Positions 10,068 through 12,986 of a DNA stretch of 64,000 nt are shown here, in pieces. Position 1 is the first letter of the stretch. Each line of letters starts with the position of its first letter. This stretch comes from Stutzerimonas stutzeri. GTDB taxonomy: Bacteria; Pseudomonadota; Gammaproteobacteria; Pseudomonadales; Pseudomonadaceae. The notes below the pieces were generated by a model. That model was given only the letters and a program-made list of their open reading frames with translations, was not told the DNA's origin and made no database searches. Location: contig NZ_JAMOHY010000005.1 of NCBI RefSeq assembly GCF_024448695.1, forward strand, positions 62,001-126,000, in the 5' to 3' direction. The position numbers and the translations under genes were made by a program.

Positions 10068-11462
10068 GTGACCGCCCATCTCCCACCAACGCTTACCTCC
10101 CTCGACCGCCTCTGGCTGACCGAAGCCGTGCGCCTGCGCGAAGAACATGCCGGTCCGCTGGACGACGACGAGGCCAATCGCAGGGCACGCGCCGAGGGCG
10201 GCGAACTGCATCAGCTGATCGAACGCCGCGCACTCTGGCTGGCCCGCCGCGACGGGCTGGTCGAGGCGCTGCAACACTGGCGCCAGGGCGCTCGGCTGGC
10301 GGCTTTGGCACTGCTGCTGTTCGCGCTGCTCAGCGGTGCGGGCCTGGCCTGGGCGGCGCTGGGGGACGGGGCACGTCCGGTCAATGTGTTCTGGGCGCTG
10401 GGCAGCCTGCTCGGACTGAACCTGCTGATGCTGCTGGGCTGGCTGCTGGGCTTTTTCTTCGCCGGCGACAGCGGCGGCGCGCTGGGCCGGCTATGGCTGT
10501 GGCTCAGCGAAAAACTCGCCCGCGATGCACGCGCCGTACAGCTGGCGCCGGCGCTGCTGGCCGTGCTGCAACAGCGCCGACTCGGTCGCTGGCTGCTGGG
10601 GCTGAGCGTGCATGGCCTGTGGTCGCTGGCGATGCTCAGTGCTCTGTTGACGCTGCTGGCCCTGCTGGCCACCCGTCGCTACGGCTTTGTCTGGGAAACC
10701 ACCATCCTCGGTGAAAACGCCTTTGTCGGGCTGACCCAGGGCCTCGGCGCGCTGCCTGCGCTGCTCGGTTTCAGCATGCCGGACATCGGGCAGATTCGCG
10801 CCAGCGGAACCCTCGCCAACGACTTCGACAGCGCCCGCCAAAGCTGGGCCGGCTGGCTGGTGGGCGTGGTGCTGATCTACGGCCTGCTGCCGCGCCTGCT
10901 GCTCGCGCTGTTCTGCCTGTGGCGCTGGCGTAGCGGACACTCGGCGCTGTGCCTGGATCTGCAACTGCCGGCCTACCGCCTGCTGCGTGAACGCCTGCAA
11001 CCGGCCAGCGAGCGCCTCGGCATTCAGGATGCAGCACCCGCCCATCTGCATAAGCCCGATAGCGGCATTCAGCCTGTAGAGGGCGAAGGCGCGGTGCTGG
11101 TGGCCATCGAACTGGAGCCGAACCGCGACTGGCCGCCCCCACTGCCCAGCGGCATCGCCAATGCCGGTGTGCTGGATGATCGCGAGCAGCGCCGACGCTT
11201 GCTTGAACACCTCACGCGGGAGCCTGCACAGCGCCTGCTGATCGCCTGCGATCCACGCCGTTCGCCGGATCGCGGCACCCTGGCGCTGATCGGCGAGCTA
11301 TCACGCTGCGCTGCCGCCACGCGAATCTGGTTGCTGCCGGCCCCGCCCGGTGGAGTTCTGGACGACAGGCGTCTGCAGGACTGGCAACAGGCGCTGGACA
11401 CGCTGGGGCTTACACACGGCGATATTGCACCGCTGAGCTGGTTGGAGACGGGCCATGACTGA
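10068..11462 (+). CDS. DUF2868 membrane protein
   Basis: A 464-residue inner-membrane protein starting with GTG. Four hydrophobic segments are visible at about 76-98, 107-131, 176-200 and 261-284, framed by an N-terminal soluble arm of 75 residues with Arg/Glu-rich helix. After 330 a soluble C-terminal domain begins (AVLVAIELEPNRDWPP, RLLIACDPRRSPDRGTLALIGEL) with alternating strand/helix character that suggests a Rossmann-like fold. The downstream gene is a DUF3482 GTPase, a pairing I know from other Pseudomonas. A palindromic repeat separates the two genes. Function is unknown; a membrane partner or receptor for the GTPase is my inference. Confidence 0.8.
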   Translation: MTAHLPPTLTSLDRLWLTEAVRLREEHAGPLDDDEANRRARAEGGELHQLIERRALWLARRDGLVEALQHWRQGARLAALALLLFALLSGAGLAWAALGDGARPVNVFWALGSLLGLNLLMLLGWLLGFFFAGDSGGALGRLWLWLSEKLARDARAVQLAPALLAVLQQRRLGRWLLGLSVHGLWSLAMLSALLTLLALLATRRYGFVWETTILGENAFVGLTQGLGALPALLGFSMPDIGQIRASGTLANDFDSARQSWAGWLVGVVLIYGLLPRLLLALFCLWRWRSGHSALCLDLQLPAYRLLRERLQPASERLGIQDAAPAHLHKPDSGIQPVEGEGAVLVAIELEPNRDWPPPLPSGIANAGVLDDREQRRRLLEHLTREPAQRLLIACDPRRSPDRGTLALIGELSRCAAATRIWLLPAPPGGVLDDRRLQDWQQALDTLGLTHGDIAPLSWLETGHD

Positions 11463-11471
11463 ACGCACTCA

Positions 11472-11542
11472 TTGTAGGGTGGATGTCGCTTTTTACATCC
11501 ACGGTTGGCAGCGGTGGATGGGTGAAGCGTCATCCACCCTAC
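11472..11542. repeat. Palindromic dispersed repeat between DUF2868 and DUF3482 genes
   Basis: Terminal arms GTAGGGTGGATG (11474-11485) and CATCCACCCTAC (11531-11542) are perfect inverted copies. The first 31 bases (11472-11502) are identical to the reverse complement of 50165-50195, showing a dispersed family. It fills nearly the whole gap inside this gene pair. Confidence 0.92.
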
Positions 11543-11555
11543 GGAGGCCCGCACA

Positions 11556-12929
11556 ATGAGCGCGCCCCTGAAACTCGCTCTGGTCGGCCACACCAATGTC
11601 GGCAAGACCTCATTGCTGCGCACCCTGACCCGAGATATCGGCTTTGGCGAGGTGTCGCACCGCCCCAGCACCACCCGTCATGTCGAGGGCGCACGCCTGT
11701 CGGTGGATGGCCAGCCGCTGCTGGAGCTCTACGACACCCCCGGCCTGGAGGATGCCATCGCCCTGCTCGACCATCTTGAGCGCGTCGAACGCCCTGGCGA
11801 GCGCCTGGACGGCCCGGCACGCACCGCACGTTTTCTTGAAGGCAGCGAGGCACGCCAGCGTTTCGAGCAGGAAGCCAAGGTGCTGCGCCAATTACTCGCC
11901 AGCGATGCCGGCCTCTACGTGATCGACGCCCGCGAACCGGTGCTGGCCAAGTACAAAGATGAACTGGCAGTGCTCGCCGGCTGCGGCAAGCCGCTGCTGC
12001 CGGTGCTCAACTTCGTCGCCCAGCCCGATCACCGTGAAAACGAATGGCGTGAGGCCCTGGCCCGGCTCGGTCTGCATGCACTGGTGCGTTTCGACAGCGT
12101 GGCGCCACCTGTCGATGGCGAGCGGCGCCTGTACGAAAGCCTGGCGCTGCTGCTGGAGTCGTCAAGGCCGCAATTGCAGCGATTGGTCGAGGATCACGAA
12201 GCTCAGGCTGCCGCACGTCTGGCCGCAGGCAACCAGCTGATCGCCGAGCTGTTGGTGGATGTAGCCGCCTGCCGGCGCAGCGTCACGGCGCAGCCGGAGC
12301 TGGAGCGCGGCGCGATACGTGAACTGCACAACGTCGTGCGCGCTCGCGAACAGGCGTGTGTCGAAGCGCTGCTGCGCCTCTACGGCTTTCGCCCGCAGGA
12401 TGCAGCAGCAGCCGACCTGCCGCTGCTGAACGGACGCTGGGGCGATGACCTGTTCAATCCGGAAACACTGAAGCAGCTAGGCGTAAAAGTCGGTGGCGGC
12501 ATGGCCGCGGGTGCGGCTGCCGGTGCCGGGGTCGATCTGATGGTGGGCGGCATCACCTTGGGCGCTGCCGCCCTGCTCGGCGCCATCGCCGGCGGCGGTG
12601 CGCAGACGGCGCGGCATTACGGCAATCGCCTGCTGGGCAAGCTCAAGGGCCAGCGTGAGCTGACGGTCGATGACAGCGTGCTGCGCCTGCTCGCCCTGCG
12701 CCAGCAGCTATTGCTGACAACCCTCGCCGCGCGCGGACACGCCGCACAACAGACCATCGAGCTGGCAATGCCGCAGGCGCAGGGCTGGCGCGACGGCAAA
12801 CTGCCCGAACCCCTGCAGCGCGCCCGCGCCCGTCCCGAGTGGTCGTCGCTCAACCCCGGCGCACATCTGGAGCAGCGTGAACGACAGGCGTTGCTCGAAG
12901 CACTGCAAGCAGAGCTGAGCCATGCCTGA
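11556..12929 (+). CDS. DUF3482 GTPase of the Era/MnmE-like class
   Basis: A 457-residue protein with an N-terminal GTPase domain: P-loop GHTNVGKT at 11-18, a Thr-rich switch I (PSTTRHVEG), and DTPG at 61-64. The guanine-specificity motif is weak: where NKxD is expected there is NFVAQPD (153-159). The C-terminal half is helical and includes a Gly/Ala-rich hydrophobic stretch at about 313-350 ([14 protein letters not shown]) like a glycine zipper that could enter a membrane. It follows the DUF2868 membrane protein by 93 bases, so both probably act together at the inner membrane. The ATG comes 9 bases after GGAGG. Family function is not established. Confidence 0.85.
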   Translation: MSAPLKLALVGHTNVGKTSLLRTLTRDIGFGEVSHRPSTTRHVEGARLSVDGQPLLELYDTPGLEDAIALLDHLERVERPGERLDGPARTARFLEGSEARQRFEQEAKVLRQLLASDAGLYVIDAREPVLAKYKDELAVLAGCGKPLLPVLNFVAQPDHRENEWREALARLGLHALVRFDSVAPPVDGERRLYESLALLLESSRPQLQRLVEDHEAQAAARLAAGNQLIAELLVDVAACRRSVTAQPELERGAIRELHNVVRAREQACVEALLRLYGFRPQDAAAADLPLLNGRWGDDLFNPETLKQLGVKVGGGMAAGAAAGAGVDLMVGGITLGAAALLGAIAGGGAQTARHYGNRLLGKLKGQRELTVDDSVLRLLALRQQLLLTTLAARGHAAQQTIELAMPQAQGWRDGKLPEPLQRARARPEWSSLNPGAHLEQRERQALLEALQAELSHA

Positions 12930-12934
12930 GCCCT

Positions 12935-12971
12935 GCAGGGTGGAAAATCGCGTTACGGTTTCCCACCCTGC
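12935..12971. repeat. Palindromic repeat, possible bidirectional terminator
   Basis: GCAGGGTGG (12935-12943) pairs with CCACCCTGC (12963-12971). It lies between the convergent DUF3482 gene and phoU. Its GGGTGG.../...CCACCC ends resemble the repeat at 11472. Confidence 0.7.
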
Positions 12972-12986
12972 GTTCGATACGACGTC

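Follow-up and report, generated by a model that had tools for sequence, protein, structure and literature searches.

DUF2868 membrane proteins and DUF3482 P-loop NTPases: a nearly obligatory, sometimes fused protein pair of Pseudomonas and other proteobacteria

Closest described systems

YcjX-YcjF from Escherichia coli is a two-gene pair consisting of a GTP-binding protein and a DUF697 membrane protein. Bacterial dynamin-like proteins combine a P-loop and a DxPG motif with a helical region and a hydrophobic membrane element, and are often found paired or fused. The DO-GTPase/GAP1 systems involve a membrane-associated GTPase with a dedicated partner, to which it is occasionally fused, and the subtypes of the partner mirror those of the GTPase (Kaur et al. 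2020, PMC7159879).

The pair described here is encoded in a 64,000-nucleotide stretch of DNA from Stutzerimonas stutzeri, which is called the window below. Both proteins are full-scoring members of Pfam families, DUF2868 (PF11067) and DUF3482 (PF11981), that are named but functionless. A search of 5.4 million papers, which cover a minority of the subscription journals, found no description of their obligate pairing, fusions, or pseudo-G forms; four papers mention the DUFs by name, and none of them reports a functional test. In a proteome study of Thiodictyon, 39 proteins had higher levels in darkness, and a DUF2868 protein is one of them.

Like YcjX-YcjF, the module couples a candidate GTP-binding protein to a membrane protein, but there is no sequence link between the two systems: neither window protein matches DUF697, and no match to a DUF697 (PF05128) partner was found in the own genome or in 18 relatives. 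A complementary distribution with YcjF-type DUF697 proteins was considered and rejected, given that the overlap of 1 in 14 does not differ significantly from the roughly 2.6 expected. Four genomes (G103, G117, G124, and G211) encode two adjacent frames of ~450-600 aa that both match DUF697, one strongly and the other weakly; such paired DUF697 frames, present in many Gammaproteobacteria, are a parallel paired system. The likeness to DO-GTPase/GAP1 comprises the dedicated partner, the occasional fusion, and the mirrored subtypes. Contrary to that system, recurring effector or sensor genes are missing around the DUF2868-DUF3482 pair, and of the Pfam families represented in 95 neighbor proteins, taken from diverse loci, none was found in more than two.

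Genetic organization of the locus

Both genes are found on the forward strand, the DUF2868 gene at positions 10068-11462 and the DUF3482 gene at 11556-12929. The GTG start codon of the former matches the starts of its relatives, and a GGAGG Shine-Dalgarno-like sequence lies just 5' of position 11556. A scan for sigma-70 promoters returned nothing. The named relatives of the window show 87% identity. In 75 of 80 Pseudomonas loci the module adjoins a divergent folA gene, a position that points to a stable location on the chromosome and not to an island.

The 93-nt gap between the two genes is due to the insertion of a palindromic repetitive element of ~70 bp (11475-11544), which matches the own genome at 56 places and is absent from relatives whose two genes overlap. 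Unrelated-looking insertions occupy the same junction in other Pseudomonas (e.g., loci L118, L125, L130, and L145), and this junction is therefore a repeated insertion target. A second palindrome (GCAGGGTGGAAAA...TTTCCCACCCTGC) at 12935-12975, in the interval where the module and phoU converge, is probably a shared terminator or a related repeat.

Pairing of the two families

At the class level, an evenly drawn set of 276 genomes contains 14 in which DUF2868 scores above its Pfam cut-off, and DUF3482 does so in exactly these 14. At the phylum level (349 genomes), the same holds for 35 genomes, again identical for both families. For the 151 genomes of one Burkholderiales-like family, the two counts come to 49 and 53, and the mismatches vanish with a more sensitive profile, except for one case at a contig edge and weak, sub-cut-off matches to the zipper alone. 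The two families are hence not independent in their occurrence, in agreement with the dedicated partnership that the sequence-only reading had proposed.

The two genes are adjacent, in the same order and on the same strand, both in the diverse loci sampled and in all 80 named Pseudomonas loci, where they are mostly between -8 and +7 nt apart (that is, from an 8-nt overlap to a gap of a few nucleotides). The distance matrices of the partners agree closely (Mantel r=0.93, against a maximum of 0.11 in 999 permutations), and the three subtypes of each partner pair like with like in 69 of 69 cases. Shared ancestry and co-inheritance of adjacent genes account for part of this agreement, but not for the absence of unpaired copies. 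The possibility that two unrelated proteins are mere operon neighbors, kept together by chance or co-regulation, is hardly credible: adjacency does ease co-inheritance, but in many families the two are present or absent together even though their subtypes share just 20-25% identity, and both the like-with-like pairing and the natural fusions described below speak against it. The association is genuine and nearly obligatory, and the two proteins almost certainly work as one membrane machine.

The module is patchily distributed in Pseudomonas, one Burkholderiales-like family, and other proteobacteria, including Neisseria. A phage-borne system was considered and rejected. The only relative in a virus search (IMG/VR), L197, is an intact DUF3482 NTPase beside phage-like genes (SSB, RecT-like), with no DUF2868 gene in the 8 kb upstream, and it is apparently a host gene beside a prophage that inserted at the module; matches to PHROG 8900 carry no assigned function. 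Spread by plasmids was likewise discarded, since two of the three plasmid records are chromosome-sized Neisseria gonorrhoeae sequences. These 2.17-Mb records, labeled as plasmids in PLSDB (e.g., L318, NZ_CP119142.1), contain both genes intact and adjacent. In Thiodictyon syntrophicum (L319), the pair is located on the 485-kb plasmid pTs485 beside puf photosynthesis genes, and its DUF2868 protein reaches 703 aa.

The DUF2868 membrane protein

The product of the first gene is a predicted integral membrane protein of 464 aa that matches PF11067 with E=2.8e-101 (339.6 bits, against a curated cut-off of 26.8). The four helices and the soluble C-terminal domain noticed in the sequence-only reading are borne out by hydropathy and the AF2 model. 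The predicted transmembrane helices span residues ~76-98 (TM1, hydrophobic segment 77-95; positions 10293-10361), ~107-131 (TM2, segment 114-132; 10386-10460), ~172-202 (TM3, segment 183-201; 10581-10673), and ~253-283 (TM4, segment 264-282; 10824-10916). Two conserved motifs accompany them, W-E-T-T-x-L at residues 209-214, C-terminal to TM3, and PR at residues 275-276, inside TM4. The charges of the loops suggest that both the N- and the C-terminus are cytosolic.

The C-terminal alpha/beta domain (residues ~330-464; 11055-11459) was delimited from the AF2 model and hhalign. For the DUF2868 protein there is no relative of solved structure, and a Foldseek search gave no significant match, the non-significant ones including many GTPases. 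Aligned with hhalign to the second half of the G domain of the partner, the C-terminal domain scores 27, compared to maxima of 19 for shuffled sequences and 17 for decoys, at a probability of only about 15-29%. The domain is thus a possible homolog of the G domain.

The DUF3482 P-loop NTPase

The second gene encodes a protein of 457 aa with matches to MMR_HSR1 (PF01926; residues 7-152, E=8.9e-14, 52 bits against a cut-off of 21.9) and to DUF3482 (residues 165-451, E=4.9e-112, 374.5 bits against a cut-off of 29.2). Pfam, AF2, Foldseek, and profile comparison assign its G domain (residues ~4-185; 11565-12110) to an Era/Der-like TRAFAC fold. The P-loop GHTNVGKTS (residues 11-19; 11586-11612) and the G3 motif DTPG (residues 60-63; 11733-11744) are intact, as the sequence-only reading had stated, and their key residues (G11, N14, G16, K17, T18, and D60-T61-P62-G63) are invariant in 56 of 56 close relatives, mostly from Pseudomonas. 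In the wider family, the P-loop, D[TS]PG, and the asparagine of G4 are each kept in all 70 intact G domains, which are diverse in origin.

Of the motifs that define a TRAFAC GTPase, the protein thus has the P-loop GxxxxGK[ST] and DxxG, but not NKxD, which (as N[KQT]xD) occurs in just one of the 70 G domains. Its remnant is the dipeptide NF (12009-12014), where N152 alone is conserved, together with F153 in close relatives. The segment NFVAQPD had been taken for a degenerate NKxD. This does not hold, as neither the lysine nor the aspartate is conserved: position 158 is an aspartate in only 10 of the 56 close relatives, and D158 of the window protein, judged from this alignment, is coincidental. 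Since NKxD is missing in 69 of the 70 G domains, guanine specificity is uncertain, and so is the label of a predicted GTPase with GTP as its ligand. The earlier description of a GTPase with a dedicated partner is therefore strongly supported in its second part and doubtful in its first. The proteins Era, Der, and MnmE share the G-domain fold and a hydrophobic residue after DTPG, but differ in keeping NKxD and in bearing KH or RNA-modification domains where the DUF3482 protein has its zipper domain.

This C-terminal part begins with a long-helix region (residues ~188-275; 12117-12380), modeled by AF2 as helices 201-237 and 247-275, and ends with further AF2 helices at residues 373-457 (12672-12926). 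Between them, an Ala/Gly-zipper hairpin is predicted from conservation, composition, and the AF2 model at residues 312-347 (12489-12596), close to the Gly/Ala-rich hydrophobic stretch first placed at about 313-350. Glycine and alanine make up 49% of residues 306-366, with several GxxxG motifs. Six residues (G319, G323, D327, G332, G342, and G346) do not vary among 33 sequences, the most distant of which share 23% identity, and D327 separates the two hydrophobic halves of the hairpin. The hairpin is also where the AF2 model has its lowest confidence (pLDDT 27-44).

Natural fusions of the two proteins

In 14 genomes of the Burkholderiales-like family, both domains are encoded in one open frame. 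Two examples of such fusions, L276 and L304, are 757 and 805 aa long. The best tree of the membrane region requires four changes of fusion state, at least two of them forced by well-supported branches; this phylogeny indicates that the two proteins became fused on more than one occasion, in most cases losing the nucleotide-binding site. Three of the 14 fusions retain an intact G domain, with MMR_HSR1 confirmed by Pfam in two. The other 11 keep the membrane region and the zipper and have no recognizable nucleotide-binding motif (P-loop, DTPG, or the G4 asparagine). Five of these were checked by Pfam, and DUF3482 was found in all five, DUF2868 in four, and a GTPase family in none.

In four of the 11 G-less fusions, the middle region aligns to the G domain (hhalign probability 94%, E 9e-8) with the P-loop, DTPG, and the asparagine replaced. 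In the other seven, it is shorter, more eroded, and not individually recognizable as a G domain. Values of dN/dS in three pairs of fusions range from 0.16 to 0.64, and the fusions are therefore under purifying selection, as expected of working genes. No second DUF3482 copy over the cut-off was found in the fusion genomes. The three G-retaining fusions, together with a quick tree with many weak nodes, suggest that fusion came first and the loss of the G domain followed.

Proposed mechanism and alternative explanations

With a confidence midway between doubt and acceptance, it is proposed that the two gene products form a single obligate complex in the inner membrane, with nucleotide-controlled docking of the zipper subunit. 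The DUF2868 protein would span the membrane with its four helices and keep both ends in the cytosol. The DUF3482 protein would be a P-loop NTPase, either soluble or peripheral to the membrane, with the zipper hairpin in its helical C-terminal domain. This hairpin may pack in or against the membrane beside DUF2868, and the putative binding and hydrolysis of a nucleotide by the G domain would most likely control whether the hairpin subunit docks on, or inserts at, its partner. Direct contact, topology, and this switch logic are what we infer. A covalent fusion would make recruitment constitutive, leaving the switch superfluous and free to decay, and the active-site decay in 11 of the 14 fusions would be explained by such tethering of the zipper domain to DUF2868. 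An unlikely extension of this model is a heterodimer between the active G domain on the zipper subunit and a membrane-anchored, degenerate (pseudo-)G domain of DUF2868; upon fusion, one G domain would be dropped and the other would often decay, giving a nucleotide-independent version of the device.

Alternatively, the DUF3482 protein might be a small dynamin that oligomerizes on the membrane through a helical stalk and a zipper paddle, deforming or fusing it, with DUF2868 as the receptor. It shares the P-loop, DxPG, and helical region with LeoA/LeoBC and IniA, and its hydrophobic hairpin, modeled at low confidence and flanked by long helices, may correspond to their membrane element. The LeoA model for bacterial dynamins matches the G domain with E=2.2e-9, and Foldseek aligns IniA across the length (prob 0.99), although both likenesses are weaker than that to Era and Der. 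However, the TM-score to IniA is only 0.23, the window protein has no match to Dynamin_N (PF00350) even at E<=1, and NKxD is lost. Moreover, the G domain begins at residue 4, so that helices lie only C-terminal to it, unlike the helical bundle of dynamins, to which both flanks of the domain contribute, and the 11 fusions without an active site show that hydrolysis is dispensable there, all of which makes a dynamin rather improbable. It is quite improbable that the protein is an Era/Der-type GTPase tied to ribosomes or translation, which DUF2868 would bring to the membrane to serve membrane-protein biogenesis. Der and Era are indeed the nearest solved relatives by profile (E to 1e-23), and the Pfam name of the domain is "50S ribosome-binding GTPase", but within the G domain these matches are confined to roughly the first 70-120 residues, a zipper domain stands where a KH or RNA-binding domain would be, and the distribution is patchy.

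That patchiness, like the zipper hairpin, would fit a defense or cell-death device in which a nucleotide-regulated pore former is held by its membrane partner, and the LeoA/LeoBC models of the defense library do match the G domain. Nonetheless, the likeness is confined to that domain, as PADLOC gives no match for DUF2868; the site next to folA is stable rather than a defense island, no variable effector gene was seen, and the single relative on a viral contig is apparently of host origin, making this very improbable. The role in stress or envelope remodeling suggested in the sequence-only reading finds no support here.

Significance

The two families were already known, but neither their obligate pairing nor the erosion of the G site that accompanies fusion appears to be described in the papers searched. 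The fusions, of which some keep the active site and most lack it, separate the role of the membrane region and the zipper from that of the nucleotide switch. The family-wide loss of NKxD with the asparagine kept makes the family suited to probing how Era-like NTPases select their nucleotide. Taken as a pair, DUF2868 and DUF3482 represent a widespread two-protein membrane system of Pseudomonas, one Burkholderiales-like family, and other proteobacteria.
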